Positions 1-14,665 of a DNA stretch of 42,124 nt are shown one piece after another. The stretch spans positions 1-42,124 of the IMG/VR virus record IMGVR_UViG_3300042302_000211; one strand, 5' to 3'. Source of the stretch: a virus. Within the stretch, counting starts at the first letter, position 1, and the number at the start of each line of letters is the position of its first letter. A program made the translations under genes and the position numbers. The notes under the pieces are model-generated. The model saw nothing but the letters and a program-made list of their open reading frames with translations. It had not been told where the DNA came from and did no database searches.

Positions 1-596
1 ATCTTGTCATACACCGAAGGGTCGGAGGCTGCTAATGCGGCTTCTTGCTCCGAGTGGGGGTCATCAATGATCAAAAGATCAGCTCCTTTACCCGTTACCG
101 TACCGCCTACCCCAATCGCAAAATAGTCTCCGTTGGCATTCGTTGCCCAGCGACCTGCTGCTTTCGAGTCTGTACGCAAAGAGACATTCGGAAAGATCTT
201 GGCGTAGGTTTCTCCGTCTACTAAGTTCCTGACCTTACGTCCAAAGCCCACAGCTAATTCTGCGGTATTTGAGCACTGAATCACTTTCTTATGCGGGTAC
301 TTGCCTAAAAACCATGCAGGGAGAAGGTATGACGCAAACTCAGATTTAGTATGACGAGGAGGCATATTAATAATAAGACGTCTAACTTTACCATCGGCAA
401 TCTCCTCAAATTTTTTAGCCATCAAAGCATGGTGTCTACCCAAGATAAACCCAGGCCACATCTGTTTTACAAACGACATAAACGACTTCTGTGCTGCCTT
501 ACGGACAACCGAGTTCTTGTAGTCCTCTGCCATGGTAAAGAGATTTTCTCGATCCCCTTCTGGCAGACCTTCTAAGAACTTTTCTAAATTACTCAA
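1..596 (-). CDS. terL: Terminase large subunit, N-terminal part (truncated by window edge)
   Basis: This is the packaging motor ATPase that drives DNA into the prohead together with the small terminase. The reading frame stays open for 198 codons to the left edge, so only the N-terminal ATPase half is present. A Walker A-like segment MPPRHTKSEF lies at residues 78-87, in the RHTKS form usual for phage TerL. The Walker B strand and catalytic acid are LLIIDDPHSE at residues 174-183. I chose TTG at 596-594 as start: it overlaps the stop of the upstream gene by eight bases and has AAGG nine bases upstream. The first in-frame ATG (residue 22) would start within a conserved-looking helix. The nuclease domain lies outside the window. 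Identification is firm; the exact start is less certain. Confidence 0.93.
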   Translation of the reverse strand, partial: MSNLEKFLEGLPEGDRENLFTMAEDYKNSVVRKAAQKSFMSFVKQMWPGFILGRHHALMAKKFEEIADGKVRRLIINMPPRHTKSEFASYLLPAWFLGKYPHKKVIQCSNTAELAVGFGRKVRNLVDGETYAKIFPNVSLRTDSKAAGRWATNANGDYFAIGVGGTVTGKGADLLIIDDPHSEQEAALAASDPSVYDK

Positions 597-837
597 TGTA
601 CCGAACCTTTATATAGGAGGGGCGAATACTTCTCATTTTTCCCTTAATTCCTTTACAGATCCCAAGGTCTACTAAACGCCACATCTTACGACTGACATTA
701 CCCCGACCTTTTTCCCCTGTGATGTACATGACATCATCGATACTCGGAGCGAATCCGAACTTCTTCCAAAATTCATCAATGACCAAGAAGATCTCTTTTT
801 GTGCTGGCGTCAAGGTTTTCTCCTTTCTTCTACCCAT
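589..837 (-). CDS. LexA-type winged-helix DNA-binding protein
   Basis: An 82-residue protein that resembles the N-terminal DNA-binding domain of LexA: LTPAQKEIFLVIDEF, then a GFAPSIDDV turn, then a recognition-helix-like GNVSRKMWRLVDLG. There is no serine-protease/dimerisation half, so it would be a stand-alone winged helix. It sits directly upstream of terL and overlaps it by eight bases, which suggests a role in packaging (a second DNA-recognition subunit) or in regulating this operon. Two starts are possible: ATG at 837, overlapping the previous stop in ATGGGTAG, or ATG at 858, which adds seven residues. Neither has a well-spaced ribosome binding site. The fold is a confident inference from pattern; the function is not known. 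Confidence 0.72.
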   Translation of the reverse strand: MGRRKEKTLTPAQKEIFLVIDEFWKKFGFAPSIDDVMYITGEKGRGNVSRKMWRLVDLGICKGIKGKMRSIRPSYIKVRYIE

Positions 838-1012
838 GTTTAATACGTTCAATGACATCCTTCGTTCGTGCCATTGCTTCCTCTTCTAATATCCTAGTCT
901 TTAAATAACTCATCATCCTTAAGAGCCGACCTTTATCCTTATGTAGTAACTCCTCTAAATAATCTAAGACGAGCTGCTCTTTCTCTATTGCTGTAATCTG
1001 CCGTGCGTTCAT
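830..1012 (-). CDS. Small hypothetical protein in the packaging operon
   Basis: A 60-residue, highly charged protein that looks all-helical (EKEQLVLDYLEELLHKDKGR, then LEEEAMARTKDVIERI). I do not recognise the family. Its ATG overlaps the stop of the upstream gene as ATGA, and its own stop overlaps the LexA-like gene, so it is translationally coupled within the terS-terL operon. That position and size would suit a packaging accessory protein, but nothing in the sequence shows this. Confidence 0.6.
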   Translation of the reverse strand: MNARQITAIEKEQLVLDYLEELLHKDKGRLLRMMSYLKTRILEEEAMARTKDVIERIKHG

Positions 1013-1203
1013 GTGTGTGAGCCCTTACTCTTAATCAATACCGCATGCTGTTTTAATAAATACTCTAGATACTTCTTATCTTTGGTACTCATTCTTGCTA
1101 ACCGATCTGCCAATACATCCATATCTACCTCGACCATGGGACCCAAATTATGAAGGGGGGGTGTTTCACGTGGAACTATTTTCTGATTGTCTGCTATTTT
1201 CAT
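1009..1203 (-). CDS. Small hypothetical protein, first gene after the terS palindrome
   Basis: A 64-residue protein with a basic, Lys-rich C-terminal half (STKDKKYLEYLLKQHAVLIKS) and a central acidic/hydrophobic segment VEVDMDVLADRLARM. The family is not recognised. It is the first gene downstream of the 1246-1267 palindrome, separated from it by an A/T-rich stretch and an unusual C-rich leader (C7-A-C5 on the coding strand) directly before the start. It is followed by three overlapping genes ending in terL, so its leader may control terL expression. There is no purine-rich ribosome binding site immediately upstream, so the start is uncertain. Confidence 0.55.
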   Translation of the reverse strand: MKIADNQKIVPRETPPLHNLGPMVEVDMDVLADRLARMSTKDKKYLEYLLKQHAVLIKSKGSHT

Positions 1204-1205
1204 AA

Positions 1206-1218
1206 GGGGGTGGGGGGG
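1206..1218. other. G/C homopolymer-rich leader tract
   Basis: The plus strand reads GGGGGTGGGGGGG directly upstream of the gene that starts at 1203. On the transcribed minus strand this is a C-rich leader where a Shine-Dalgarno would be expected. Such a tract can slip during replication or hinder initiation. No function is established. Confidence 0.5.
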
Positions 1219-1245
1219 TTATATATATTAGGGTTTACCCTGTCT

Positions 1246-1267
1246 CACTATAACAGCTGTTATGGTG
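1246..1267. promoter_or_regulatory. Palindromic operator-like site, copy 1
   Basis: CACTATAACA-GC-TGTTATGGTG is an inverted repeat with ten-base arms and one mismatch. It covers the last codons and stop of terS and lies upstream of the gene at 1009-1203. The same arms occur at 14731-14751 before rusA, and similarity continues on one side (GTGAC, then AGGG, then CCTAG). It is flanked by smaller inverted repeats GGGTTTACCC (1230-1239) and AGGGTTTTCCCT. The repetition at two gene boundaries suggests a binding site for one regulator, or a transcript hairpin. Which protein binds is unknown. Confidence 0.6.
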
Positions 1268-2057
1268 ACGCAGGGTTTTCCCTAGGTATGGAATCTGGAG
1301 GGGATTGAGTGAGTGGAATACTATGCAAGTTGACTTTGGTCGGCAATGCCAAAATTTGGGGGTCGTGGGGTGGTGGGCTCTCGATTTCTGCCGTTTGCGA
1401 CTGGTCTGCCCCCTCTTTTAAGGATGTCTCTACATCAACATCATCTAGTTCTGCATCATCTCCCGCCACATCATCATCCATCTTGTCATTCCCTATGAGT
1501 TCTGCCAGTAGATCGTCTGCGGATCGTGCCTCGACATCAATCGCCTGACTGTTCTCAATTGCCAGTCGGATACTGGCCATGAGTTTCTCCCGCATCTCGC
1601 TGGGATCGCTGACCTTGATAACTTCCCGCCTCTCGGTAAAGAGAGCCACTTCGGTAATCTTGCCTAATAACTCCAGTGCCTTGAGTTGCTGAGCAGGTGG
1701 ACACTCAGGATCGAGAGCCTTTTCTGTGATCTTATGGATTGCCAACGCCCTTAAGTGTGCGGGCGTTTGGTATTTCTGTGCCTCTAAAGCCACCTTAAAC
1801 GCCTCTACTTGCATGGCGATAGTTGGGTTCTTTGCCAGTTTCTGCCCCTCATTGCTCTGTGTCTTGGGTTTGCCCTTGCTTTTATGCGACTTCCTATACG
1901 CACTTGCCTTGCTCTCTCCCAGTGCCATTTGCTTGGCAAACTCTACTTGTTTGTGGGTTAGCCTCTTTTCTTTCGAGTTGCTGACTCCCAGTAATAGGGT
2001 CTCCAGTGGCATAGCCTGTAAGCCTTGCTCTATCTCTTTCCTAGTCAAGCGTTTCAT
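1260..2057 (-). CDS. terS: Terminase small subunit-like protein
   Basis: A 265-residue protein. Residues 33-58 (LTHKQVEFAKQMALGESKAS, then a Tyr-Arg-Lys-Ser stretch) match the N-terminal helix-turn-helix of phage small terminases, in which LTxKQxxFxxxYL is followed by an ATQAAxRAGY-like recognition helix. The following SNEGQKLAKNPTIAMQV corresponds to the usual GxRLLKNPxVxxRI segment. A central helical region (about 90-180) would form the oligomerisation core, and the C-terminus is acidic (DDDVAGDDAELDDVDVE) and Pro-rich. It would recognise the packaging site and load TerL, which lies four genes downstream on the same strand. Family assignment comes from pattern only; confidence is good because of the terL linkage. 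Confidence 0.8.
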   Translation of the reverse strand: MKRLTRKEIEQGLQAMPLETLLLGVSNSKEKRLTHKQVEFAKQMALGESKASAYRKSHKSKGKPKTQSNEGQKLAKNPTIAMQVEAFKVALEAQKYQTPAHLRALAIHKITEKALDPECPPAQQLKALELLGKITEVALFTERREVIKVSDPSEMREKLMASIRLAIENSQAIDVEARSADDLLAELIGNDKMDDDVAGDDAELDDVDVETSLKEGADQSQTAEIESPPPHDPQILALPTKVNLHSIPLTQSPPDSIPRENPASP

Positions 2058-2324
2058 AGGTATCTCGTAAGAATTTCCATAGTCCTGATTCTAGGGCATT
2101 CAGGATGATTCTGCTACTGGTATCTCTTATCTCCTTATATGTCTCTCCTCTACTGGAGTTGTCCTTGGACTGTTGTGCTTCGCACCTTTGCCCGCTTTTA
2201 GGTCTCTACAAGCCCTTGCTTTATGTTTTTACGCACCTTGCACCACAAGTAAACCTTTCTACACCGCCTAAACTGACCGCAAACCCTTATCCAGTAAGCC
2301 CCTAAATTTATTTTCAAAAAGGTA

Positions 2325-2353
2325 TTGCAAAGGTGTTTATTTTCCCTCAGAAT
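2325..2353 (+). promoter_or_regulatory. Candidate promoter for the plus-strand small-gene block
   Basis: TTGCAA (2325-2330) and CAGAAT (2348-2353) are separated by 17 bases and each match four of six sigma-70 consensus positions. It lies just upstream of the first module and gene of the block. This is a prediction from hexamer and spacing only. Confidence 0.4.
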
Positions 2354-2355
2354 TG

Positions 2356-2397
2356 TCGGTAGGTGATCAAACACCGATTCGACTAACTGCTAGGAGA
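2356..2397 (+). promoter_or_regulatory. Hairpin + TAACTGCTAGGAGA module, copy A
   Basis: A short inverted repeat (TCGGT/ACCGA at 2356-2377, with GGTG/CACC inside as an alternative) is followed by TAACTGCTAGGAGA at 2384-2397. The AGGAG is the ribosome binding site for the ATG at 2405. The eight bases before the AGGAG are not needed for ribosome binding, yet recur in the other copies. Confidence 0.65.
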
Positions 2398-2404
2398 TAT
2401 ACAA

Positions 2405-2632
2405 ATGGAAAGAATTGAAACAATGGCTGACACCATAGCCTTATGGAATGAGCAAATGAGAATAGATGCGATACGCAGATACTCGATACAACAAGGATGG
2501 TCTGTTATTGATTTGTTCAATGATGGCGATCTGTTGGAGTTGCTTTCAGAATTTAAGATGGATTATGTAAAGGTTCTCAAACGCATACAAGGCATGCAAG
2601 TTGTTGAGGATACTATCCAGTCGGACTGCTGA
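2405..2632 (+). CDS. Small hypothetical protein, first gene of the plus-strand block
   Basis: A 75-residue acidic, probably helical protein (WNEQMRIDAIRRYSIQQGWS, then VIDLFNDGDLLELLSEF). No known motif is visible and I do not recognise a family. It has a strong ribosome binding site, AGGAGATATACAA before ATG, within the first copy of the repeated module, and is the promoter-proximal gene of the block. A second ATG at residue 7 is possible but lacks its own ribosome binding site. Confidence 0.7.
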   Translation: MERIETMADTIALWNEQMRIDAIRRYSIQQGWSVIDLFNDGDLLELLSEFKMDYVKVLKRIQGMQVVEDTIQSDC

Positions 2633-2641
2633 GTGATACCT

Positions 2642-2704
2642 ACAAGCCCATGCACTGCGTGGGTTTGTGGATTATCAATTTCGATAGTCATAACTGCTAG
2701 GAGA
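2642..2704 (+). promoter_or_regulatory. Hairpin + TAACTGCTAGGAGA module, copy B
   Basis: After the stop of the previous gene, TGAGTGATAC leads into a nine-base-pair stem (ACAAGCCCA 2642-2650 with TGGGTTTGT 2660-2668, one G-U). A weaker second hairpin follows (TATC/GATA), then TAACTGCTAGGAGA at 2691-2704 and the ATG at 2710. There is no U-tract after the stem, so it is not a typical terminator. Flanks and arrangement match copy D closely. Confidence 0.7.
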
Positions 2705-2709
2705 ATTAA

Positions 2710-3066
2710 ATGGAATCGACTGCCACTTTAGACTTATCCCAGTTCACTGGGACTGAGAATTACTATCGCACTAATCACCTTTTTGCTAAGGACATGGTTC
2801 ACACTGATGGCGTTCAATACTTCGCTGACACTGCTGGTTGCTACTGGTTCTTGGACATTATCGCTACTGAAGTATTCCCACTGCTCAAGAAAGAGCCATT
2901 CATGGCAATCAATCTGCTTGTAGAGGATGGCAAAGCCAAGATCGCAGTTGAGGATGGTGATCTCAAAACACTGCTTGCAAAGCAGATTGACTACACTAAC
3001 TGCCCTGATGGTCTGTATGAGTTTTTCCTGACCAACAATGTGCTGATGCTGACTTCGGAGTATTGA
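2710..3066 (+). CDS. DUF6876-family protein
   Basis: A 118-residue protein. It opens with LSQFTGTENYYRT, continues with VHTDGVQYFADTAGCYWFLD and ends in FFLTNNVLMLTSEY. This matches the pattern I know for DUF6876, a small family of phages, plasmids and integrative elements (FTGSExxYRH, TxGVQxLAExxxAYWLxD, final LPSEY). Function is unknown; the family often lies in clusters of small accessory genes, as here. Translation is set by module copy B. The next gene starts two bases after the stop, so the two are likely coupled. Family confidence is good, function open. Confidence 0.8.
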   Translation: MESTATLDLSQFTGTENYYRTNHLFAKDMVHTDGVQYFADTAGCYWFLDIIATEVFPLLKKEPFMAINLLVEDGKAKIAVEDGDLKTLLAKQIDYTNCPDGLYEFFLTNNVLMLTSEY

Positions 3067-3068
3067 TT

Positions 3069-3371
3069 ATGACTCACTACTTTATCGGCAAAGAAACCTT
3101 TAACTGCCCTTTGATTATGGAAGGCAGTTGGGGCGAAAAGGATATCGGGACTCACGAATCCACCATGGAGTTGTATTTCAGAGATGATGCCACTGGGTTC
3201 ATTGAGTGGGATATCGAGGATGTGGGTTTTGAATACATTGGTCTGTGGTTCACCATTGACCAGTTTGGTATCCGCACCTTGGATGAATATGACGGAGTGA
3301 TGTGCCTGTCTGACAAGGCAATAGCCCTGTTGCGTAAGTTTGATGTCATTGTTCCCAAGGAGTTTGAATAA
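3069..3371 (+). CDS. Small acidic hypothetical protein
   Basis: A 100-residue protein that looks like a compact beta-rich fold: many aromatic and acidic residues (MELYFRDDATGFIEWDIEDV, then YIGLWFTIDQFGIRTLDEYD). The family is not recognised. I chose ATG at 3069 because GGAG lies eight bases upstream; an in-frame TTG at 3063 would add two residues. Its stop overlaps the next start as TAATG, so it sits in a coupled run. Strong acidity fits DNA-mimic or anti-host proteins, but that is speculation. Confidence 0.7.
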   Translation: MTHYFIGKETFNCPLIMEGSWGEKDIGTHESTMELYFRDDATGFIEWDIEDVGFEYIGLWFTIDQFGIRTLDEYDGVMCLSDKAIALLRKFDVIVPKEFE

Positions 3372-3556
3372 TGAGAATCGTTGAATGCCAAGATACTGGT
3401 CGGATTCTGTGGCGGGAATGGAAGTGCCAGTGCAGTAGAAAGGTCTGCTCGGATGGTTCAGGCGAGGATGTTGCTTGTGATTGTGGGCAGTTGTTCAATG
3501 CTTTTGGGCAAAGGTTAGTTGATCCTTGCCTGTGGGAAGAAAACGAGGATTATTAA
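3371..3556 (+). CDS. Small four-cysteine zinc-ribbon-like protein
   Basis: A 61-residue protein with two cysteine pairs, CQC (residues 19-21) and CDC (residues 36-38), plus extra cysteines. The pairs are followed by GQLFNAFGQRL, a tail I associate with small conserved phage and plasmid proteins of unknown function. The cysteine spacing suggests a small zinc-stabilised domain. The start overlaps the previous stop (TAATG), and the next gene begins directly after its stop. A nucleic-acid or protein-binding role is plausible but not shown. Confidence 0.7.
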   Translation: MRIVECQDTGRILWREWKCQCSRKVCSDGSGEDVACDCGQLFNAFGQRLVDPCLWEENEDY

Positions 3557-3757
3557 ATGATCTATTTTGCTCTTAACAATGATGGACTTTTGTATGACCT
3601 AGGGGATCATGGGGATTGGGAGTGTGCTGAAGATACTGCCAACAACATGAAATTAGATCCTCTTTGGGTATTTGATGAAACAGTTGCTAAATCATGGGTT
3701 GAATTTATCAATGATCGCATTAGCGAAAATCAAGACAAACTGACGAGACTTGAATAG
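3557..3757 (+). CDS. Small acidic hypothetical protein
   Basis: A 66-residue acidic protein with a distinctive centre, DLGDHGDWECAEDTANNMKL, then WVFDETVAKSWVEFINDRI. I have an impression of a conserved small phage/plasmid family with the DLGDHGD...AEDTA signature, but no function is known. The start codon abuts the previous stop, with GAGG upstream. It is the last gene before module copy C. Confidence 0.7.
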   Translation: MIYFALNNDGLLYDLGDHGDWECAEDTANNMKLDPLWVFDETVAKSWVEFINDRISENQDKLTRLE

Positions 3758-3762
3758 TCGAA

Positions 3763-3809
3763 ACCGAATCGCCTGTATGGGGTTCGGTCTTTGTCAAACT
3801 GCTAGGAGA
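3763..3809 (+). promoter_or_regulatory. Hairpin + TAACTGCTAGGAGA module, copy C
   Basis: A stem ACCGAA (3763-3768) / TTCGGT (3783-3788) is followed by AAACTGCTAGGAGA at 3796-3809 and the ATG of a 25-codon gene at 3817. The stem sequence differs from copies B and D, while the element next to the start codon is conserved. This suggests that the structure, not its sequence, matters upstream. Confidence 0.65.
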
Positions 3810-3816
3810 TAGAGTA

Positions 3817-3894
3817 ATGTGGGACTGGATACTGATTGTTTGCTTGATGTATGTGGCTTATGTGGTTGCCAGTGCAGTTGTTATCTTTAACTAA
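3817..3894 (+). CDS. 25-residue single-span membrane peptide
   Basis: MWDWILIVCLMYVAYVVASA, then VVIFN: almost the whole peptide is one hydrophobic helix, with an N-terminal Trp-Asp-Trp anchor. It has the module-type ribosome binding site (AGGAG then seven bases to ATG), which is the best argument that so short a frame is translated. The next gene's ribosome binding site (TAAGGAGAG) overlaps its stop. It could be a small inner-membrane peptide acting on a host membrane protein or on membrane potential; function unknown. Confidence 0.65.
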   Translation: MWDWILIVCLMYVAYVVASAVVIFN

Positions 3895-3904
3895 GGAGAG
3901 TGTG

Positions 3905-4162
3905 ATGCGAGTAAAAAATGATCCAACGGATTACGCAAAAGTGTGGGGCGAAAAAGCAAAAGCATTACTACTGCACAAAAGAATTGTCAATGTGCGTTAT
4001 TTAACTCAGGAAGAAGCAGATGACATGGGTTGGGATGAAAGGACTGTTGCATTTCAAACCCATGATGGTCTGTGGTTTTTCCCCAGTCGGGATGATGAGG
4101 GGAATGGGGGCGGTGCATTGTTTACCAGTGATGAAAAGCAATCCTGTTTGCCTGTTATCTGA
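3905..4162 (+). CDS. Small hypothetical protein
   Basis: An 85-residue protein. The open frame extends upstream to an ATG at 3851, but that part overlaps the membrane-peptide gene and lacks a ribosome binding site. ATG at 3905, with AAGGAG about six bases upstream, is the clear start. The N-terminal half is helical (NDPTDYAKVWGEKAKALLLH), followed by a beta-rich part (RTVAFQTHDGLWFFPSRDDE) and a Gly-rich turn. The pattern suggests a small alpha-beta protein; family not recognised. Confidence 0.7.
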   Translation: MRVKNDPTDYAKVWGEKAKALLLHKRIVNVRYLTQEEADDMGWDERTVAFQTHDGLWFFPSRDDEGNGGGALFTSDEKQSCLPVI

Positions 4163-4171
4163 GTGATACTT

Positions 4172-4230
4172 CTATGCCCTTGTGTGAGGGTATAGGGATT
4201 GTCATTTGGCAATCATTAACTGCTAGGAGA
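4172..4230 (+). promoter_or_regulatory. Hairpin + TAACTGCTAGGAGA module, copy D
   Basis: TGAGTGATAC, then a nine-base-pair stem CTATGCCCT (4172-4180) / AGGGTATAG (4187-4195, one G-U), then a second small hairpin GATTG/CAATC, then TAACTGCTAGGAGA at 4217-4230 and the ATG at 4236. Order, spacing and flanking bases parallel copy B, while the stem bases have changed in compensating pairs. Confidence 0.7.
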
Positions 4231-4235
4231 ATGTT

Positions 4236-4706
4236 ATGGGATTAGATATGTATTTAAGTGCTAAGAGATATCTTTGGTCTGACAAGGATAAGGAAGTGGC
4301 AAAGGATATCAATGATGCAGTGGGGGTGGAGTGTGATCCTGAGAAACGCTTTGCGGGATCGAGTCTGATGGTCAAAGAAGTATCCATTGATGCAATGTAT
4401 TGGAGAAAAGCAAACGCTATCCATGGATGGTTCGTGGAAAACTGTCAGGGTGGTGTGGATGAGTGTCAGCAATCCTATGTGCCAAGGGAAAAACTGGTGG
4501 AGTTGCGGGATTTGTGCAAGGATATTCTTGAGAACCCTGATGCCGAAAGGGATGAGGACTTAGAGCCTACAAAAGGATTCTTCTTTGGTTCATACGAAAA
4601 GGATGAATGGTATTACCAAGACCTGAAGAATACAGTCGAGGGCATAACCAGTGCGTTATCACTGCCCGAAGATCAGTATGAGTTTTACTATCAAGCCAGT
4701 TGGTAA
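4236..4706 (+). CDS. Conserved phage protein of the 'MGLDMY' type, function unknown
   Basis: A 156-residue acidic protein starting MGLDMYLSAKRYLW, with a central YWRKANAIHGWFVENCQGG and a C-terminal GFFFGSYEKDEWYYQDLKNT, ending in FYYQASW. I recognise this set of motifs as a widespread phage/prophage hypothetical family; I know of no demonstrated function. The conserved W-R-K-x-N-x-I-H-x-W core and aromatic C-terminus suggest a compact enzyme-like or ligand-binding fold, but no catalytic residues can be assigned. Translation is governed by module copy D. It is the largest product of the block. Confidence 0.75.
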   Translation: MGLDMYLSAKRYLWSDKDKEVAKDINDAVGVECDPEKRFAGSSLMVKEVSIDAMYWRKANAIHGWFVENCQGGVDECQQSYVPREKLVELRDLCKDILENPDAERDEDLEPTKGFFFGSYEKDEWYYQDLKNTVEGITSALSLPEDQYEFYYQASW

Positions 4707-4715
4707 GGGGGTTAT

Positions 4716-5036
4716 ATGGACTTTGAAGAATGGTATGAAAAATACAAACCCATTAAGAATCACCTTGCAAGGGGTGAGGATCGGGATTACTTTGAGACCT
4801 ATGACCTTGAACTGGGTTATGTCTTAGGTATCGCAGATACTCATCCCAAAAAGGTATGGACTTATGTTGATGGTGATGGTGGGACTTATGTGGTGGATGG
4901 TTATCACCTAGTCAATCGTATCTATTACTTCATTACTGAAGTGCCTTATGAGGGTGATGGGTTAGAGGTTCAGGTTGATGAATATGGTGGGTGTGCAATT
5001 TGTGGAGAGGAAGGAGAGTGCGAACATGAGTTATGA
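4716..5036 (+). CDS. Acidic hypothetical protein with C-terminal Cys cluster
   Basis: A 106-residue, strongly acidic and Tyr-rich protein (RGEDRDYFETYDLELGYVLG; then VWTYVDGDGGTYVVDGYHLV). The C-terminus carries CAICGEEGECEHEL, a possible four-ligand metal site (Cys, Cys, Cys, His). The N-terminal part resembles a small beta-sheet domain. No family recognised. It begins nine bases after the previous stop, with AAGGGGG upstream, and overlaps the next gene by eleven bases. Acidity and small size would suit a DNA-mimic or inhibitor role; unproven. Confidence 0.7.
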   Translation: MDFEEWYEKYKPIKNHLARGEDRDYFETYDLELGYVLGIADTHPKKVWTYVDGDGGTYVVDGYHLVNRIYYFITEVPYEGDGLEVQVDEYGGCAICGEEGECEHEL

Positions 5037-5211
5037 CTCAGATTACGAAAGTGTTTACATGGTTGAGTTTGAATCAGGCAGAACAATCCATGTTCAATTC
5101 TTTGATGCAGAAGAAGTAAAAGATTACTGTTCTCAACATCACCCTGACATGGTTATTAAATCAATCTACCGAGAGGTTTACTGTAATTTTGAGGAGTGTG
5201 AAGATGCGTAG
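5026..5211 (+). CDS. Small acidic hypothetical protein
   Basis: A 61-residue protein from ATG at 5026, which has AAGGAGAG at a good distance. An upstream in-frame ATG at 4975 lies inside the previous gene and is less likely. The sequence is acidic and beta-rich (VYMVEFESGRTIHVQFFDAE, then EVKDYCSQHHPDMVIKSIYR), with three cysteines. No family recognised. It overlaps both neighbours, so it is translationally coupled. Confidence 0.65.
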   Translation: MSYDSDYESVYMVEFESGRTIHVQFFDAEEVKDYCSQHHPDMVIKSIYREVYCNFEECEDA

Positions 5212-5377
5212 ATATGGAATGAGTGTCAAATTTGAGGGAACGACCTATGTTGAGGTGGATGTGCCAAATGGGGAAGATCCTGAAGAATATGGGATGGATA
5301 TTGCTAATCCCAAGGATGTGGATAACTGGGAGATTATTGAGGTTTACGGATTAGATGAGGTTGATCCGAATGACTAA
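5204..5377 (+). CDS. Very acidic small hypothetical protein
   Basis: A 57-residue protein starting at ATG 5204 (GAGGAG about nine bases upstream; it overlaps the previous stop by eight bases). An earlier in-frame ATG at 5189 lacks a better site. Acidic residues greatly outnumber the few Lys/Arg (VDVPNGEDPEEYGMDIANPK; then EIIEVYGLDEVDPND). Charge and size resemble phage anti-host or DNA-mimic proteins, but this is only a resemblance in composition. Confidence 0.65.
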   Translation: MRRYGMSVKFEGTTYVEVDVPNGEDPEEYGMDIANPKDVDNWEIIEVYGLDEVDPND

Positions 5378-5516
5378 AAGTATCTTAGAACTTATAAAAG
5401 AACACTTGATTACATGGCCTCAGTCGGTTGATTCTCAGTTATGGAATGACCGAGTTGATACCTTAATTAAGCGGGTTGAGGAGTTAGAGGAGAAGAAAGA
5501 CCAAAAGCCCGAATAG
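5370..5516 (+). CDS. 48-residue helical protein, last gene of the plus block
   Basis: MTKSILELIKEHLITWPQ, followed by a probable amphipathic coiled coil (VDTLIKRVEELEEKKDQKPE). The ATG overlaps the end of the previous gene by eight bases. It is too short for an ordinary ORF cut-off but continues the tight gene packing up to the terminator. The N-terminal segment with a Trp-Pro turn followed by a helix suggests a small oligomerising protein. Function unknown. Confidence 0.6.
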   Translation: MTKSILELIKEHLITWPQSVDSQLWNDRVDTLIKRVEELEEKKDQKPE

Positions 5517-5539
5517 ATTTACCTAGCAGTAAAAGGAAG

Positions 5540-5568
5540 CCCCCAGTGCCGTAAGACTGGGGGTTTTT
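5540..5568 (+). terminator. Rho-independent terminator of the plus-strand block
   Basis: Perfect eight-base stem CCCCCAGT (5540-5547) / ACTGGGGG (5556-5563), loop of eight, followed by TTTTT. It separates the plus block from the convergent minus-strand operon ending at 5574. On the minus strand the sequence after the stem is CTTCCTTTT, a weaker U-tract, so termination is mainly for the plus strand. Confidence 0.85.
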
Positions 5569-5573
5569 CTATA

Positions 5574-6395
5574 TTATCTGCCTATCAACACCTTTTTGAG
5601 GGATTGAGACATTTTAAAAGCACCATGAGCAATATAGTCATCATTGAAATCATGCCCGACTGTCGTAGAGATCCAATAAGGTTTGCCTGTCTCTTTGGCG
5701 ACTCGTTCTCCGACACCACTGGGGTCATTGTCAGCCACGACTATCCCATTGGGGATAAGCCTTGCTACTTCCTTGAGGTTGCCTGCACTAAAGCAAACAT
5801 GGATTGTGTATCGCATTTTATTGGCTCTCATTACCGCCTGAATCGAGAGACCCGTAGCGAGACCCTCGCAGAAGATGGGGACACCTTTTGCGTCAAAGGT
5901 GAAAGTTGCCCCCTTCGTCTGTTGACCATAGAGAAACTTCTTCTTCCCCTCGTCATTGATGAGTTGGCATCCTACTATTCTTCCTTCTCTTCGCATGGCA
6001 ATAACTAACTTACCTTCGCCCTCTGGCGTGTTCCAAACTGGCATCATTTCGTCTGGAAATCCTTTTTTAATCAGATAGGGATGGTGCATAAGTTGGGTCT
6101 GATGCATAATCCAGCCCGCTTTTGCACTTGCCCGTTCTGCCAGTGCCTTTCGTTTTTGATCTTCTTGATTGCGTAATTTTTCGAAATGTGGGGTTGGTGC
6201 ATATTTCTCGTTGCTTCGCCACATACTGGGTTTATCCATGGTTGCCCAATTCTGCACCCACGCTACATCACCCATGTATTTATAACGCCCATTACGCTTA
6301 TGGGGGTGGTCGTCCGTTGGGGTAGATATCCACTTAAATGGAACAACACTGTTAATAATGAGCCCATGGGATCGGGCAAAGTCCTCAAATCTCAT
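5574..6395 (-). CDS. Toprim-domain protein, primase-like
   Basis: A 273-residue protein from ATG at 6395, overlapping the helicase stop as ATGA, with GGGAAG upstream. The C-terminal half is a Toprim fold: catalytic Glu in FCEGLATGLS (E177) and the Asp pair in VVADNDPSG (D222, D224), with the usual GxG-rich strand between. This arrangement is typical of Toprim_3-type proteins of phages and plasmids related to DNA primases. The N-terminal 80 residues contain Trp/aromatic motifs but no zinc finger. It would act in replication initiation or priming with the adjacent helicase. It is the last gene of this operon. Primase activity is an inference from the family; the Toprim assignment is solid. Confidence 0.82.
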   Translation of the reverse strand: MRFEDFARSHGLIINSVVPFKWISTPTDDHPHKRNGRYKYMGDVAWVQNWATMDKPSMWRSNEKYAPTPHFEKLRNQEDQKRKALAERASAKAGWIMHQTQLMHHPYLIKKGFPDEMMPVWNTPEGEGKLVIAMRREGRIVGCQLINDEGKKKFLYGQQTKGATFTFDAKGVPIFCEGLATGLSIQAVMRANKMRYTIHVCFSAGNLKEVARLIPNGIVVADNDPSGVGERVAKETGKPYWISTTVGHDFNDDYIAHGAFKMSQSLKKVLIGR

Positions 6396-7870
6396 GCACT
6401 TCCCTTTCCTTTTGACCAAGCAATCATTCTATTTTTTACCCATTTTTGGGTCGTAATCGAGGGGGGTATGGTGGTATCTAACAGACCTTTAGGCCATACG
6501 CCAAATCTTTCTCGATATTTATGGTTAGCCCAATAGGGGTTGTAGTTGTAAGTCTTGGCTATGTATAAAAGTTCGGAGTAAAAGATTTGCTTATCATCTT
6601 TTCTTGCCTTATTGCCCGCTACCAATTCAACTAACTCACCCGCCACATGATCGACCATGCTCTTGCGTTTACGCACATGACCACAAGCGGGGCAAGTATC
6701 ACTGTTCTTAGGCCATAAATAACCGCAGGATGGGCATTTGGCTTCTGCTTTTTTCTTTTCAGTTAGTTCTCGCTTGGCTCTCTCTACTTTACCCTCAAGG
6801 GACTTAACACCTTCGGAGTAAATCTCATCCCAATCATCCCGAAAGCGTAAATAGTTACCTGAATGGTCTAGCCATAGGGCAAACTCTTTGCCTTCGTAAG
6901 GACGCATAACCCGCCCCATTTGTTGGACATGACTGGAAAGGGATTTGGAAAAAGGTCGAGCAGAAACTCCAATCATCACATCCGATACATCAAAGCCTCT
7001 AGTAAGAATGTCAGTCGCAATCAGACCATTGATCTCGGTATCGGGTTTGGCAAAGTCTTCGATGGCTGCCCGCTTGAATTCGTCATTATCTTTATAGGAA
7101 ATCGAGACAAAGTTATAGCCTTTTTGGGCAAACTTATCGACCAAATGTGCGCCATGGGCTACGCCTGAGCAGAAAACAATAGTTTTAACGGGCTTTCCAA
7201 AAACTTCGTGGGTCTTTTTAATCCATTCATCCACAATATCGCCCGTAATTCTCATGCCTCTCTCGGTGGTTTGGTCGGCAGACCACTCTCCAGCGACCTT
7301 TTTAACGCCCGTCATATCGATTTCTTTAGCAATATAGACCTTGAGTGGGGCAAGCCACTTAGAATTCACCAAATCCTCTGTGGTAGCCCCGCAGACCACA
7401 TTGGAATACAGATCCCCCAATCCTTTGGTAAATGGCGTGGCGGTCAATCCAATGACTTTGACCTGGGGATTGTTTTGGATAAAGTCAGAAGTCTGCTTTC
7501 TAGCGATATGGCATTCATCGACTATAAGAAGATCAATCTCTGGAAAGTCTTGTCTGCGTTCTAGGGTTTGGGCAGAACACACCTGAAGTCGGTTGGTGCG
7601 GTCAAATTTCCAATGATCGGCTTGAAATACCCCATGATTGATGCCGTACTTAGTGAGGCGGTTACTGGTTTGATCGACCAAGACAATGCGGTCAAGCACC
7701 ATCGATGCCTTCTTGTAATTGTCTTTGGTGGCTTTCATTAGGTAGATGGCTACCTCGGTCTTACCAAACCCTGTTGGGGCATACAACAGTTGAGATCGGT
7801 GTCCTTGCTTAAACCCGTCTCTTAGAACACTAACCACATGGGTTTGGTGTTCTCTTAACTCTAAATCCAT
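6392..7870 (-). CDS. Superfamily 2 DNA helicase with zinc ribbon
   Basis: A 492-residue DEAD/DEAH-type helicase. Seen directly: LREHQ at the N-terminus (Q-motif-like), Walker A APTGFGKTE (K37), DExH box VDECH (118-121), TATP (143-146) and motif VI QQMGRVMRP (Q316 onward). After the helicase core is a zinc ribbon with Cys379, Cys382, Cys393 and Cys396, and a basic C-terminal extension of about 90 residues ending in a Trp-rich domain. This layout matches the phage/RecG-UvsW-like SF2 helicases (SSL2/COG1061 type) used in replication or branch migration. It precedes the Toprim gene, with which it overlaps, suggesting a helicase-primase pair. Confidence in class is high, in exact role moderate. 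Confidence 0.9.
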   Translation of the reverse strand: MDLELREHQTHVVSVLRDGFKQGHRSQLLYAPTGFGKTEVAIYLMKATKDNYKKASMVLDRIVLVDQTSNRLTKYGINHGVFQADHWKFDRTNRLQVCSAQTLERRQDFPEIDLLIVDECHIARKQTSDFIQNNPQVKVIGLTATPFTKGLGDLYSNVVCGATTEDLVNSKWLAPLKVYIAKEIDMTGVKKVAGEWSADQTTERGMRITGDIVDEWIKKTHEVFGKPVKTIVFCSGVAHGAHLVDKFAQKGYNFVSISYKDNDEFKRAAIEDFAKPDTEINGLIATDILTRGFDVSDVMIGVSARPFSKSLSSHVQQMGRVMRPYEGKEFALWLDHSGNYLRFRDDWDEIYSEGVKSLEGKVERAKRELTEKKKAEAKCPSCGYLWPKNSDTCPACGHVRKRKSMVDHVAGELVELVAGNKARKDDKQIFYSELLYIAKTYNYNPYWANHKYRERFGVWPKGLLDTTIPPSITTQKWVKNRMIAWSKGKGSA

Positions 7871-7923
7871 AAATACTCCTAACTACCAAATTCCCTTTGG
7901 CTTGGGCTGGGGCATACGCCCCC

Positions 7924-8787
7924 TTAAACTGTTTCGTATTTCTTTAGTTTTGCTTTTAATGATTTAATGGTTCGCATCATTTCAGCGTTCTCGTTTTGAT
8001 AAATGTCTCGGCTTTCACGCATAGACTTGTTATCAATCTCTAAAACCCTGATCTGTTCCCGTAGGTTCTTGATGGTCTCTTCGACATCGATCTTCTCAAT
8101 CTCAGAGGCATCCCACTGTCCTACGGCTATCTTGTCCCGCATGACTGTGTTTTCTTCTGCCAAAGTATTGACTGTGGTGGCTAACTCTTTGACCTTTTGC
8201 TCCAGTTCTTTGACCTCTGGGTTGGCGGTTGTTACATCAGGCTTCGTGGTTGGGGTGGTCGCCTTTTTCTTCTTATCGGTCTTCATGGTGGTTGTATTGC
8301 CATGCCTATCGACATAGGTAACAGTGGTTTGGGCTGGGGTTTTCGCTTCTTCTTGCATCGCTACACGCACACGCCCAACAGTCATGCTAGAGATATCAAG
8401 TTCCTTGGCAATATGGTTGTTTGACCACTTGCTGTATTCCTCATCGGTAAGCATGATGCGAAGAATGGCACGGATGTCTTCGGCTTTAAGGCGGTTGCCA
8501 TGTTTGTTGTTGGCTTTCCATGCGTAGAACTGGGCTTCACGCAGTGTGCCAGTATGGATAATTGCTTCGATACTGGTTAGCCCATTAGTTTTATAACCAA
8601 AGTAGCGATGGAATCCATCGACTAACCAGTATACCGAGCCATCATGGAATACTTCAACGGGCGGGAAAACAACTCCCTCACGCATCACCTCGGCATATTC
8701 TTTGACGAGGTTTTGATCTAGTTCGAGACGGGGCTGAGTTCCCCCATCAGTACGGATATTCAGTAGATTCAGTTTCTTCACATTCAC
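7924..8787 (-). CDS. ParB/Srx-fold nuclease-like DNA-binding protein with coiled coil
   Basis: A 287-residue protein. The N-terminal domain shows the ParB/sulfiredoxin pattern: a variable PPVEVFHDGS strand followed by WLVDGFHRYFG (DGFHR at 57-61). A helix-turn-helix follows at about 121-140 (SNNHIAKELDISSMTVGRVR). Residues 155-190 are Thr/Lys-rich linker and about 190-285 form a long coiled coil. Phage proteins of this type serve in regulation, partition-like DNA binding or nicking. It is the first gene of the 8787-5574 operon and is preceded by a structured leader with direct repeats, which might be its own binding sites (inference). Confidence 0.82.
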   Translation of the reverse strand: MNVKKLNLLNIRTDGGTQPRLELDQNLVKEYAEVMREGVVFPPVEVFHDGSVYWLVDGFHRYFGYKTNGLTSIEAIIHTGTLREAQFYAWKANNKHGNRLKAEDIRAILRIMLTDEEYSKWSNNHIAKELDISSMTVGRVRVAMQEEAKTPAQTTVTYVDRHGNTTTMKTDKKKKATTPTTKPDVTTANPEVKELEQKVKELATTVNTLAEENTVMRDKIAVGQWDASEIEKIDVEETIKNLREQIRVLEIDNKSMRESRDIYQNENAEMMRTIKSLKAKLKKYETV

Positions 8788-8819
8788 TCCTCTTGTAGTT
8801 AAGTAAGTAATACAGTCAG

Positions 8820-8878
8820 GTTGCTTTTTGGTGAACGCACCTAGCCTCTCCTAGATGCCTTCAACTGTTGCTTTTTGG
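8820..8878. repeat. Pair of 12-base direct repeats upstream of the ParB-like gene
   Basis: GTTGCTTTTTGG occurs at 8820-8831 and again at 8867-8878, spaced 47 bases start to start, each followed by a C/A/G-rich segment containing CACC or CACCC. The first copy is 33 bases upstream of the ParB-like start. They are candidates for operator or partition-like sites of that protein; this is inference from position. Confidence 0.45.
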
Positions 8879-8983
8879 AGCCACAGCACCCGCCAGACGT
8901 TCGATCTAGGACTCTGGCTTCGCCATCCTTTCCCCTGTTTCAGATCTAATCCCACAGTAGGGGTTCTTCCCATATAGCTGCTG

Positions 8984-9061
8984 TTATGTCCGACCTATAT
9001 GGTGTAGCTGTGGAGACTTACGAAGAGTGAAGAGGCAGTTATGCCTTTCACACGTTCTCGT
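8984..9061 (-). CDS. Putative 25-codon ORF behind a module-type ribosome binding site, no ATG
   Basis: GTGCTAGGAGAATTACG on the minus strand nearly matches the module element of copy B, but where ATG would be expected the frame starts with ACG. Read from that codon, 25 residues follow (TRTCERHNCLFTLRKSPQ, then LHHIGRT) to a TAA, with a CxxHxC cluster. It may be a gene with a very weak start, a decayed gene whose ATG became ACG, or a leader element that is not translated. I list it because the upstream element is otherwise unexplained. Confidence 0.25.
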   Translation of the reverse strand, partial: TRTCERHNCLFTLRKSPQLHHIGRT

Positions 9062-9122
9062 AATTCTCCTAGCACGACTAGATTAAACCAATCGAAATAA
9101 ATTTGCAACAATTTTTTTTCAC

Positions 9123-9156
9123 AAAAGAAAAACCCCCAGGAGTGTGAGCCTGGGGG
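9123..9156 (-). terminator. Rho-independent terminator of the leftward recombination operon
   Basis: On the minus strand an eight-base stem CCCCCAGG / CCTGGGGG (9156-9149 with 9140-9133) is followed by TTTTTCTTTT. It lies downstream of the last gene of the 14635-9314 operon. The stem resembles that of the plus-strand terminator at 5540-5563 (shared CCCCCAG/CTGGGGG core). On the plus strand the hairpin is followed by TTTTAGGG, weaker. Confidence 0.85.
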
Positions 9157-9162
9157 TTTTAG

Positions 9163-9214
9163 GGTGAGTGTGTTCACCGAGGGCTTGCTTTGCACAAAAC
9201 CAATCTGCTAGGAG
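9163..9214 (+). promoter_or_regulatory. Hairpin + CTGCTAGGAG module, degenerate copy E
   Basis: A five-base stem GGTGA (9163-9167) / TCACC (9174-9178) is followed 26 bases later by CTGCTAGGAG at 9205-9214, then a GTG codon at 9223. The order matches copies A-D, but the TAA before CTGCT is replaced by AAT. It stands apart from the plus block, between the leftward operon's terminator and convergent HNH gene. Confidence 0.45.
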
Positions 9215-9222
9215 TGGAGAAC

Positions 9223-9252
9223 GTGCGATACCAGTGTTGGCTGGTGCACTAA
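9223..9252 (+). CDS. Putative nine-residue leader peptide (GTG start)
   Basis: GTG at 9223 follows the module-type AGGAG at a spacing of eight bases and encodes MRYQCWLVH before TAA. The next frame's ATG directly follows this stop. So short a peptide can be supported only by the ribosome binding site; it may be a leader peptide or the remnant of a longer gene. Confidence 0.25.
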   Translation: MRYQCWLVH

Positions 9253-9330
9253 ATGTACCACATAACAGGAATAAACGTCAACATGTTGTGTTATCAAGGA
9301 ACATCAAAGGCTATCAACGGATATCAATAA
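9253..9330 (+). CDS. Putative 25-residue ORF coupled to the leader peptide
   Basis: ATG immediately follows the TAA of the nine-codon frame (TAAATG), giving MYHITGINVNMLCYQGTSKA plus five residues. It ends inside the 3' end of the convergent HNH gene. No ribosome binding site of its own; it would depend on re-initiation. Weak evidence. Confidence 0.2.
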   Translation: MYHITGINVNMLCYQGTSKAINGYQ

Positions 9331-9607
9331 GTCCGTTTTCAAAGAGCCAGCCTATAGTCTTGCGGTGGGCTTCTTCCCACATTTCAACCCGTTCTGCTTT
9401 ACTTAGGCTCAAACCCTGATCCAGATTGGAATGACACTGAAAACAGAGAGCCGCCACCCTAAAATCGTGCGCCTTCAAGGATCTCCCTTTTCCGTCACGG
9501 AGCTGGTTTGAGTGCGCAGCGCAGACTGTGCCGTCCTGTTTGCCACAGTTATGGCATGGGCTAGTTCTAACCAGCTCTAGGAGCTTCTTATTGCGATAAA
9601 TAGTCAC
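9314..9607 (-). CDS. HNH-type nuclease-like protein (DUF1364-like)
   Basis: A 97-residue protein with zinc-binding pairs Cys18/Cys21 and Cys55/Cys58 and a histidine-containing AAHSNQLRDGKG between them (H32), followed by HSNLDQG. This CxxC...AH...CxxC layout is that of the DUF1364/Ref-like HNH-related phage proteins, which lie in recombination or Nin-type regions; P1 Ref is a RecA-dependent nuclease of similar design. Here it is the last gene of the recombination operon, four bases overlapping the sigma-4-like gene, and just before the operon's terminator. Nuclease activity is inferred. Confidence 0.75.
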   Translation of the reverse strand: MTIYRNKKLLELVRTSPCHNCGKQDGTVCAAHSNQLRDGKGRSLKAHDFRVAALCFQCHSNLDQGLSLSKAERVEMWEEAHRKTIGWLFENGLIDIR

Positions 9608-9789
9608 AGAAGATCATCTGGGGAATAGACATCATAGCGAGTTCTTAGAACTCGTCTGATCTTATCCAAGGCAGATTTCTCCAAAATAGATACATATGCA
9701 CGGGATATGCCCATCTCCTTGGCTATCTCTTCATGGGTTAATTCTGCTTCAAACCCCGTTGTTTTATTAACATCTACCATCATCTTCAT
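9604..9789 (-). CDS. Sigma-70 region 4-like helix-turn-helix protein
   Basis: A 61-residue protein containing LTHEEIAKEMGISRAYVSIL, then EKSALDKIRRVL, closely following the sigma-70 region 4.2 pattern (LTxEEIGxxLGVSRERVRQIExxALxKLR), including the -35-recognising helix. There is no region 2, so it is not a complete sigma factor. It may bind -35-like DNA or the RNA polymerase beta flap to redirect transcription, or be a simple HTH regulator. ATG at 9789 is preceded by GAGGA six bases upstream. It overlaps both neighbours. The fold is well supported; the role is open. Confidence 0.75.
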   Translation of the reverse strand: MKMMVDVNKTTGFEAELTHEEIAKEMGISRAYVSILEKSALDKIRRVLRTRYDVYSPDDLL

Positions 9790-9982
9790 CGCTGATCCTC
9801 ACACTGGAAGATACATTGTATGCCCGATTCCATGCTGCTTGCCAGACAATCCAGTAGTTCTGAAGGATCTTTTGGGGGTGGGGCCATGGCTCTATGGTAT
9901 CCATAGCCCACTGATTAAATTCTTCTTCCATTCGATTTATATTTAGGGAATTTTCACGATCTTCGGTAGTCCAAGTAGTCAT
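9767..9982 (-). CDS. Small hypothetical protein
   Basis: A 71-residue, Trp-rich acidic protein (MEEEFNQWAMDTIEPWPHPQ, then NYWIVWQAAWNRAYNV). No known domain is recognised; the tryptophan-rich helical centre suggests protein-protein contact. It overlaps the conserved hypothetical gene upstream by four bases and the sigma-4-like gene downstream by 23, so it is a coupled member of the operon. Confidence 0.6.
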   Translation of the reverse strand: MTTWTTEDRENSLNINRMEEEFNQWAMDTIEPWPHPQKILQNYWIVWQAAWNRAYNVSSSVRISDEDDGRC

Positions 9983-10611
9983 GTTATCTCCTCAAAGTTA
10001 TAAAACCATTCGTCCTTAGCACTCCACTTAGCATGGTTCTCAACGCTATATACCTCGGTGGGTATCTTAAAGTCGGGTGTCTTTAGAACTGCGGGTACTA
10101 GCGATACATCGTACCAAAGGCACCGATTATTAGGTTGGCAAGCAAACTGCCCGTTATCTAAACGGATAAAGTTATAAGACTTATGCTCCTCAACACCCTC
10201 TGAAAAGCTAGTATCTAGTCTGTTAGATTCGGGCGAGGCAAAGTCAATGGTGAACAGGTAATTACCAAAGTGAAACTGCTTGTCCTTGCCAAAGAACTTG
10301 ACCTTGAGTCCTCTTAAATTAGACTTCTCAATCACCGCCATGTCGTAGGATAGGCAGTCCCATATCTGTAGGTGGTCTAACGGCAACGGCTCGGCTACTT
10401 CTTTCCACACATAAGCATGGATTGGTAGCTTGTCGTACAAAGCACCGTAGTTAGTTAGCATCGACTCGATACGGAAGGCTTGCCCTTTGATCGCCTTGGC
10501 AGTCATCCACACACAAGGCTCTAGTTCTCCATGCCCTTTCTCGTGGTTGTAGAGAAACTCCTTACGCACAAAGCACTTGACGGGGGGTATATTGGCTACA
10601 AGGAATGTCAT
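9979..10611 (-). CDS. Conserved phage protein, function unknown
   Basis: A 210-residue protein starting MTFLVANIPPVKCFVRKEFL; start at 10611 overlaps the upstream small membrane protein's stop as ATGA (an ATG at 10629 would add six residues). Motifs such as EPCVWMTAKAIKGQAFRIES and YDKLPIHAYVWKE are, in my memory, typical of a conserved hypothetical family in environmental phages. The composition is that of a soluble alpha/beta protein with a conserved Cys/Lys-rich N-terminus. No catalytic motif can be named. Confidence 0.7.
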   Translation of the reverse strand: MTFLVANIPPVKCFVRKEFLYNHEKGHGELEPCVWMTAKAIKGQAFRIESMLTNYGALYDKLPIHAYVWKEVAEPLPLDHLQIWDCLSYDMAVIEKSNLRGLKVKFFGKDKQFHFGNYLFTIDFASPESNRLDTSFSEGVEEHKSYNFIRLDNGQFACQPNNRCLWYDVSLVPAVLKTPDFKIPTEVYSVENHAKWSAKDEWFYNFEEIT

Positions 10612-10781
10612 TTTTGAATCCTTTCCCACAACTCAGACATTGGCATCCCCCTAATTTCTCTCCAACCAATGTGTATACAGGCGTACATAATGAACAGGAA
10701 GAACGCAAAGACTACGGCAAATATTAGCACCGCACAGGTAGCTACGAACAAAGCAAACATATTAAGTATGGTGACAATCAT
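10608..10781 (-). CDS. 57-residue membrane protein
   Basis: ATG at 10781, one base after the lipoprotein gene's stop, opens a 57-codon frame. Residues 3-36 form one long or two short hydrophobic helices (NMFALFVATCAVLIFAVVFA, then FFLFIMYACIHIGW), followed by a positively charged tail. The stop overlaps the next gene's ATG (ATGA), which supports real translation. It follows a lipoprotein and a secreted protein, so three envelope proteins are encoded in a row. Superinfection exclusion is one possible role; unproven. Confidence 0.65.
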   Translation of the reverse strand: MIVTILNMFALFVATCAVLIFAVVFAFFLFIMYACIHIGWREIRGMPMSELWERIQK

Positions 10782-10782
10782 T

Positions 10783-11043
10783 TTATTTAATATATTTTGG
10801 CATACAGGTTACGTCAACTGGGGCCTCAGATAAGAACCCATTAACTTTTCTTCTAGTAGTTATTACAACAGGTCTTGTGCCTGCCGCTTCGCACTCCATA
10901 ATGGCATTAATCATTTCATTTCGAGACATTACATACGTGCTTTTATCTACAAGAACTTCCGTATTCGGAAGATTAGCAATTGGGTCTCTGCTGGCACAAG
11001 CACCAAGTACTGCACACACCGCAACAATGTATAGCTTCTTCAT
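10783..11043 (-). CDS. Small lipoprotein
   Basis: An 86-residue protein with a short positively charged N-terminus, hydrophobic core and lipobox VLGAC (Cys16), so it should be lipidated and anchored in the envelope of a Gram-negative host. The mature part is about 70 residues with two cysteines (ECEAAGTRPVV and VDVTCMPKY), which may form a disulfide. It overlaps the upstream secreted-protein gene by four bases. Phage lipoproteins near early genes often block receptors or DNA entry of rivals (Cor- or Llp-type); this is an analogy, not a match. Confidence 0.72.
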   Translation of the reverse strand: MKKLYIVAVCAVLGACASRDPIANLPNTEVLVDKSTYVMSRNEMINAIMECEAAGTRPVVITTRRKVNGFLSEAPVDVTCMPKYIK

Positions 11044-11321
11044 TTTTTGTTTCCTTTTTCAAAAAAATTTAGGGAGTAAGAATGCAACATGCCTGTATCC
11101 CAAATAATGAGCACTCTTGACTCATCTGCTGCCCAACAGCCAAAGTTAGCACTCCCATCTCTGTAGGTTAAGTAGGCTATCTTTGTATTCTTAATATCTT
11201 TACACTTTGCATCTGTTAAAGAAATGGTCATATCGTCCTGATTTATACCTTGAGCTATAACGCCACGTGCTAAAACTTGGGCAGATAAAATTAGGCTTAA
11301 CAAAACAACTACAACTTTCAT
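11040..11321 (-). CDS. Small secreted/periplasmic protein
   Basis: A 93-residue protein with a signal peptide (MKVVVVLLSLILSAQVLARG, cleavage likely after ALA or a nearby small residue). The mature domain has two cysteines (DAKCKD and FGCWAAD) and a beta-rich pattern ending in WDTGMLHSYSLNFFEKG. No family recognised. It overlaps both neighbours by four bases. Together with the lipoprotein and membrane protein downstream it forms an envelope-directed trio within an otherwise recombination-centred operon. Confidence 0.7.
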   Translation of the reverse strand: MKVVVVLLSLILSAQVLARGVIAQGINQDDMTISLTDAKCKDIKNTKIAYLTYRDGSANFGCWAADESRVLIIWDTGMLHSYSLNFFEKGNKK

Positions 11322-12424: not shown

Positions 12425-12432
12425 GACGTCTC

Positions 12433-14635: not shown

Positions 14636-14640
14636 TTAGT

Positions 14641-14654: not shown

Positions 14655-14665
14655 AACTAGACTTG

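Follow-up and report, generated by a model that had tools for sequence, protein, structure and literature searches.

The 42,124-base virus contig IMGVR_UViG_3300042302_000211 (the window, meaning the whole stretch analyzed) carries a recurring sequence immediately upstream of start codons, with copies A to D in an operon of small genes and copy E on the minus strand. The leaders in front of this start-associated sequence are of three kinds: a promoter with a hairpin (copy A), a predicted pseudoknot (copies B and D), and a predicted hammerhead ribozyme (copy C). These leaders are probably exchangeable cassettes, each ending in a fixed ribosome binding site (RBS), (T)AACTGCTAGGAGA, positioned at a newly made mRNA 5′ end or close to it; for the pseudoknot, we infer such a role. 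By this arrangement, a long phage mRNA may be cut into separate gene-sized messages.

The 14-mer TAACTGCTAGGAGA occurs exactly at positions 2384 to 2397 (copy A), 2691 to 2704 (copy B), and 4217 to 4230 (copy D) on the plus strand, and copy C (3796 to 3809, plus strand) is the variant AAACTGCTAGGAGA, which differs from it by one mismatch. The repeat that an initial annotation had reported before the genes starting at 2405, 2710, 3817, and 4236 is therefore real. These genes span 2405 to 2632 (copy A), 2710 to 3066 (copy B), 3817 to 3894 (copy C; an open reading frame of only 25 codons), and 4236 to 4706 (copy D; phrog_7971-like, with no assigned function). AGGAG precedes the start codon by 8, 6, 8, and 6 nucleotides, respectively; the annotation had rightly placed it near the start, and its spacing of 6 to 7 nucleotides becomes 6 to 8 as measured. 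The annotation had missed copy E, TAACTGCTAGGAGA at 14641 to 14654 on the minus strand (13-mer, 14641 to 14653). Copy E lies 11 nucleotides past a −10-like hexamer and has no stem before it. The window contains five copies of the 13-mer AACTGCTAGGAGA in total, compared to a shuffled mean of 0.00, and four of the five are 6 to 8 nucleotides upstream of starts in the rightward operon. At copy E (14627 to 14654, minus strand), the expected start codon reads ATC, as it does in the related locus L006; at the same position, relatives L010 and L011 have an ATG that opens a 75-amino-acid protein (MKTIPYTT...). A partial copy, AATCTGCTAGGAGT, is located at 9202 to 9215 (plus strand) right after a terminator-like hairpin (region 9126 to 9215) and has no clear gene; its position is kept in many relatives, where the downstream gene is mostly unclear.

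To ask whether the repeat accompanies gene starts, 70 related viral loci were collected via the helicase gene, and unique copies were counted. The 14-mer was upstream of a start codon in 25/26 copies, and the 12-mer AACTGCTAGGAG was upstream of a start codon in 75/78, compared to 823/1573 (52%) for any AGGAG and 25/117 for the reverse complement of the 10-mer. The comparison with AGGAG-containing controls in related phages, put forward in the initial annotation as a possible refutation, thus leaves the element standing. No extended pairing of TAACTGCT is apparent with commonly known 16S 3′ ends, a comparison that included no host 16S. A scan of genome contigs with AACTGCTAGGAGN6ATG returned matches spread over unrelated taxa, which are probably mostly due to chance.

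The leader of copy C (3734 to 3795, plus strand) is, from its core, stems, GUC triplet, and covariation, a type I hammerhead ribozyme for which self-cleavage is predicted. Its letters, GACAAA CTGACGA GACTTGAATAGTC GAAA CCGAATCGCCTGTATGGGGTTCGG TC / TTTGTC, follow the type I order of stem I, core, stem II, GAAA, stem III, cleavage triplet GUC, and stem I. Stem I pairs 3734 to 3739 with 3790 to 3795, the core CTGACGA occupies 3740 to 3746, and the predicted cut, C3789|U3790, is 9 nucleotides upstream of CTGCTAGGAG. Copy C has the CUGANGA and GAAA core elements and a UH at the cleavage site, together with three covarying helices and ends in stem I; over the aligned copies, the core is invariant except at N7. 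The ACCGAA/TTCGGT pair named in the initial annotation is stem III. A hammerhead descriptor search of approximately 2 Mb of the loci returned 59 unique matches, nearly all of them immediately upstream of CTGCTAGGAG, compared to 1, 1, and 5 matches in Markov shuffles.

Pairing was tested on 69 unique hammerhead copies chosen by core and RBS only, a set in which a few variant or misparsed rows lower the score rather than raise it. For stems I, II, and III alike, the pairing of each strand with its own partner was reached by 0/2000 partner shuffles, and many pair types were found at each stem position. RNAalifold kept 15 pairs, 12 of which had changes on both sides. The predicted cut falls 9 nucleotides before CTGCTAGGAG, equivalent to 10 nucleotides before TGCTAGGAG, in 43/69 copies, and the range for TGCTAGGAG is 8 to 13. 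An ordinary strong RBS with chance hairpins would account for AGGAG, which is a normal Shine-Dalgarno sequence. However, that explanation leaves out the eight conserved nucleotides outside AGGAG, the hammerhead cores, and the covariation beyond shuffles; we give it practically no credence, and the stem pairing in the 69 copies already refutes it for copy C. Two groups of variants were seen among the hammerheads. In L015 15745(−), L050 17604(−), L080 2446(+), L102 7113(+), and L177 3579(+), stem III contains an inserted stem with two GAGTCCGCAAA-like copies that form a symmetric internal motif. In L018 7309(−), L016 10329(−), and L029 17545(−), extra nucleotides (CTGATGATGGG...) follow the CTGATGA core and resemble known insertions after A9.

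Copies B and D are preceded by a second structured RNA element, which the alignment describes as a pseudoknot of three covarying helices, P1, P2, and P3. It consists of an upstream strand (AGTGATA) followed by two hairpins. The first, P2, is long (e.g., CTATGCCCT/AGGGTATAG; a 10- to 12-bp stem with conserved imperfections). In the second, P3 (GATTGTC/GGCAATC), the 5′ half and the loop are also complementary to the upstream strand, and this pairing forms P1. In copy B (2632 to 2689, plus strand), the 5′ strand of P1 is 2632 to 2638, P2 is 2642 to 2650/2660 to 2668, P3 is 2670 to 2676/2683 to 2689, and the 3′ strand of P1 is 2673 to 2679. In copy D (4162 to 4214, plus strand), the corresponding parts are 4162 to 4168, 4172 to 4180/4187 to 4195, 4197 to 4203/4208 to 4214, and 4200 to 4206. 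All of the stems named in the initial annotation are present (the P2 stems in copies B and D as well as ACCGAA/TTCGGT in copy C), and the TGAGTGATAC and second hairpin that it had described as common to copies B and D were confirmed. Its claim that all four genes have the same arrangement is not supported, given three kinds of leaders and, in copy A, a different small hairpin. The fold z is −4.9 for copy B and −2.6 for copy D, and the copies match the pseudoknot model with E values of 6e−18 (B) and 6e−21 (D), which are partly circular because the model contains the window sequences.

Approximately 50 unique relatives of the pseudoknot were collected with the use of P2 pairing, but not that of P1 or P3; a first, loose descriptor was too noisy (2330 matches) and was replaced. 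Among 26 distinct sequences, 99.8% of the cells were paired when P2 and P3 were assumed and 97.7% when P1 and P2 were assumed. The covariation score exceeded all 500 shuffles and was far above the slid controls. Strand shuffling reached the observed pairing in 0/2000 cases for P1 and 1/2000 for P3. Covariation of the stems, the second check that had been proposed, was thus found in the pseudoknot as well as in the hammerhead. No family in Rfam 15 (4227 models) matched the pseudoknot up to an E value of 10 in the window region or in the other copy-bearing loci. The leaders of copies B, C, and D are not intrinsic terminators, as had been proposed, because no proper T-run follows the stem; a terminator scan lists only D of these three, and the tail concerned, ATTGTCATTT, belongs to P3. 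In GC-rich relatives, the leaders before CCGCTAGGAG (L041 7154(−), L041 6906(−), and L045 15454(−)) are P2-less pseudoknots (AACCG, loop CGGTT) or terminator-like hairpins, which are a possible fourth leader type.

It is very improbable that the repeat is a DNA-binding site (an operator or stoperator) instead of part of an RNA. It is short and asymmetric and has one orientation relative to genes, like the cluster A stoperators (mentioned in PMC3203893). However, a DNA site would not explain the tight spacing to start codons, the internal AGGAG, or the RNA covariation, nor why the stems of copies B and D, from the same genome, differ in sequence yet stay paired. Many strand-inverted or gene-free copies would also be expected of such a site, and few were found.

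Leaders of different kinds are exchanged at orthologous genes. Among the orthologs of gene 4236, 13 loci have a pseudoknot leader and 9 have a hammerhead leader, each followed by the same CTGCTAGGAG; these counts come from sequences inspected singly, as the automatic classes ("PK" and "other") are loose. The leaders of the gene 2710 family include pseudoknots, hammerheads, and one promoter (L025). This swapping is the strongest argument that the pseudoknot, hammerhead, and promoter serve equivalent functions. A search of 20 phage records with both models showed that the strong matches cluster within each genome; the number per genome ranges from none to three for pseudoknots and from none to a handful for hammerheads. 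The swapping of modules that differ in type and sequence before the same gene would also suit a repeat serving mainly as a recombination joint for the shuffling of small genes, as would the ATTCGACTAACTGC common to some promoter and pseudoknot copies. A joint of this kind, which the initial annotation had offered as one option, is compatible with module swapping but improbable as the main function, since it predicts neither varied stems with kept pairing nor an invariant hammerhead core. Gene shuffling may be a consequence of the element rather than its purpose.

Putative promoters occupy the same slot at copies A and E, where they would supply the fresh 5′ end from just upstream. A promoter-like sequence before the first operon gene, TTGCAA-N17-CAGAAT (2325 to 2353, plus strand), was read from the letters and is below the cutoff of the prediction tool; the small leader hairpin that follows (2355 to 2383, plus strand; minimum free energy, −11.1 kcal/mol; z, −1.2) is weak alone. 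The leftward operon has a promoter-like TTGACA-N17-CACAAT (14666 to 14694, minus strand). In relatives, operon-leading copies have TTGACA promoters 32 to 40 nucleotides upstream of the start-associated sequence. Promoter copies form two main classes overall, in which the −10 hexamer is 10 to 15 or 32 to 40 nucleotides upstream, and several promoters of the latter class have a small hairpin between the −10 hexamer and the start-associated sequence. If transcription starts approximately 7 nucleotides after the −10 hexamer, the start-associated sequence of the 10- to 15-nucleotide class lies only a few nucleotides from the 5′ end, much as it would after the hammerhead cut. A terminator-like hairpin with a T-run (5535 to 5568, plus strand), identified by consensus match only, may end the rightward operon.

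At copy C, the hammerhead would cut the polycistronic RNA after GUC (C3789|U3790), giving a downstream message with a short 5′-OH leader, TTTGTCAAACTGCTAGGAGA, and an upstream message with a structured 3′ end. The initial suggestion of an RNA-processing element is therefore supported for copy C, where cleavage is predicted; it does not as yet extend to copies B and D, where a structured RNA occupies the same slot. There, the pseudoknot may do an equivalent job, either processing the RNA or insulating or protecting the message. The preceding gene runs up to or into the structures: of 60 pseudoknots, 53 have its stop codon between −6 and +3 relative to the first P1 base, and of 76 hammerheads, 56 have it between −6 and +7 relative to stem I. 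In 21 of those 56, this stop is supplied by the UGA within the CUGA core. Stem II of copy C contains the TAG that closes the gene ending at 3757, and a TGA abuts P1 in copies B and D. A ribosome terminating on the preceding gene would cover the first helices and could thereby delay folding.

It is quite possible, if short of probable, that the pseudoknot does not cut and instead insulates or couples translation, folding once the ribosome clears the upstream stop, blocking read-through, and keeping the RBS free of upstream structure. The stop codon at P1 in 53 of the 60 copies fits this proposal, as do the switch-like competition of P1 and P3 for one strand and the very stable P1-plus-P2 fold in the window. 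Occlusion of the Shine-Dalgarno sequence by P1 is not supported as its mechanism, because the predicted accessibility of AGGAG is nearly unchanged by P1 (0.53 with P1 available, 0.56 with P1 hidden, and 0.59 with all upstream RNA removed). Insulation also leaves unexplained the replacement of the pseudoknot by a hammerhead or promoter at the same genes.

If the pseudoknot were a site for a host or phage ribonuclease, its replacement by a self-cleaving ribozyme before orthologous genes could be understood: the phages would rely on a ribozyme in some cases and on a nuclease site in others to obtain gene-sized messages. In T7, RNase III cuts between early genes to yield single-gene mRNAs; the T7 sites are likewise intercistronic RNA structures, but they are cut by a host protein and have no ribozyme core. 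The 10- to 12-bp P2 stem with its conserved imperfections is consistent with a nuclease site. However, P2 is short for RNase III, which would not need the conservation of P1 and P3, and we regard the nuclease proposal as a minority possibility. Slightly less likely still is that the pseudoknot represents a novel class of self-cleaving ribozyme, or else a novel signal for RNA processing, that is swapped freely with hammerheads and gives each gene its own mRNA 5′ end.

Several observations weigh against exchangeable cassettes that provide fresh 5′ ends. Many of the copies belong to related phages and cannot be counted as independent. The window copy C scores 27.7 bits with RF03152 (gathering threshold, 56.3) and 16.2 bits with RF00163 (gathering threshold, 34), and the hammerhead of relative L104 reaches 30.8 bits against the same threshold of 34. 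A gathering threshold belongs to a model and is not a structural definition of the hammerhead. An Rfam search of the whole window missed the copy C hammerhead, which was detected weakly when a short stretch was searched; its match to the hammerhead model (E value, 9e−17) is partly circular, as that model contains the window sequence. The 6-bp stem I of copy C has no obvious internal loop or loop for tertiary contacts, so cleavage could be slow. No catalytic core is visible in the pseudoknot, and P1 and P3 have four nucleotides in common, which implies either partial helices formed at once (an H-type pseudoknot) or two alternating folds. The GC-rich relatives L041 and L069, with AAGCC upstream and GGCTT entirely within the P3 loop, favor a pseudoknot. 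Finally, some start-associated sequences have no upstream promoter or structure (e.g., where they overlap coding sequence in L017, L019, and L025), and the 5′-end rule is therefore not universal.

The initial annotation knew of no named element of this type, but both parts have precedents. Perreault et al. (2011) described clustered hammerheads that flank single phage or prophage genes or short gene blocks, demonstrated the activity of tandem sets, and proposed that hammerheads process long phage RNAs into gene-sized mRNAs (PMC3088659). In a halovirus, a hammerhead is 13 nucleotides before the start, and the mapped 5′ end is within 3 nucleotides of the cut (PMC3088659). In contrast to those hammerheads, the predicted cut in the window and its relatives is at a near-fixed distance before a conserved RBS, a pseudoknot or promoter may take the place of the hammerhead, and the copies are below the Rfam gathering thresholds. 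Cluster K mycobacteriophages have a repeated 13-bp start-associated sequence with AGGAG just before many starts, about half of which are preceded by inverted repeats (ESAS) (PMC3203893). The window likewise has a conserved sequence of approximately 13 nucleotides at the RBS of many genes; the AGGAG core is common to both, whereas the rest of the consensus probably differs. In cluster K, the 17-bp repeats that form the ESAS arms are conserved in sequence, and the authors reported scant evidence for an mRNA hairpin (PMC3203893). In the window and its relatives, by contrast, the stems vary in sequence with covariation, and one of the leader classes is a predicted ribozyme. The combination of a hammerhead with a start-associated sequence, the module swapping, and the pseudoknot are new here.

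Among cultured phages, Flavobacterium elemo phages (MT497017 and relatives) have a hammerhead 81% identical to copy C with full type I anatomy, located between small genes but lacking AACTGCTAGGAGA. The elemo isolates differ in stem II by a paired change, from GACT/AGTC to GGTT/AACC. In elemoA (MT497017, L378 5967 to 6074), a reverse-strand hypothetical protein is annotated over the hammerhead, as it is in 3/4 further elemo isolates. A megablast search with positions 1 to 20000 of the window found no near relative among cultured phages, and gene 4236 has no relative in any cultured phage of the collection. The closest helicase relative among the cultured phages, MW202426 (56% identity), has no such element in the 27 kb examined, and an Erwinia phage blastn match was discarded since the full hammerhead is absent. 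Elsewhere in the window, positions 8888 to 9004 (minus strand) match the Betaproteobacteria-1 RNA (RF02932) with 100 bits, as was also seen in 9/9 related loci scanned; this phage-borne small RNA gives only a hint of the host group. One uninterrupted reading frame of 3768 codons (15166 to 26472, minus strand) takes up more than 25% of the contig.

What phage hammerheads are for was not clear from the 2011 survey (PMC3088659). The slot is now defined: a predicted cut approximately 9 nucleotides before a standard RBS, right after the previous stop, that at the same gene can be replaced by a promoter or by an unclassified pseudoknot. This definition makes the idea of gene-sized mRNAs directly testable, with the similar hammerhead of the cultured Flavobacterium phages as a laboratory system, and singles out a small set of RNAs that could be screened for self-cleavage of a new class.

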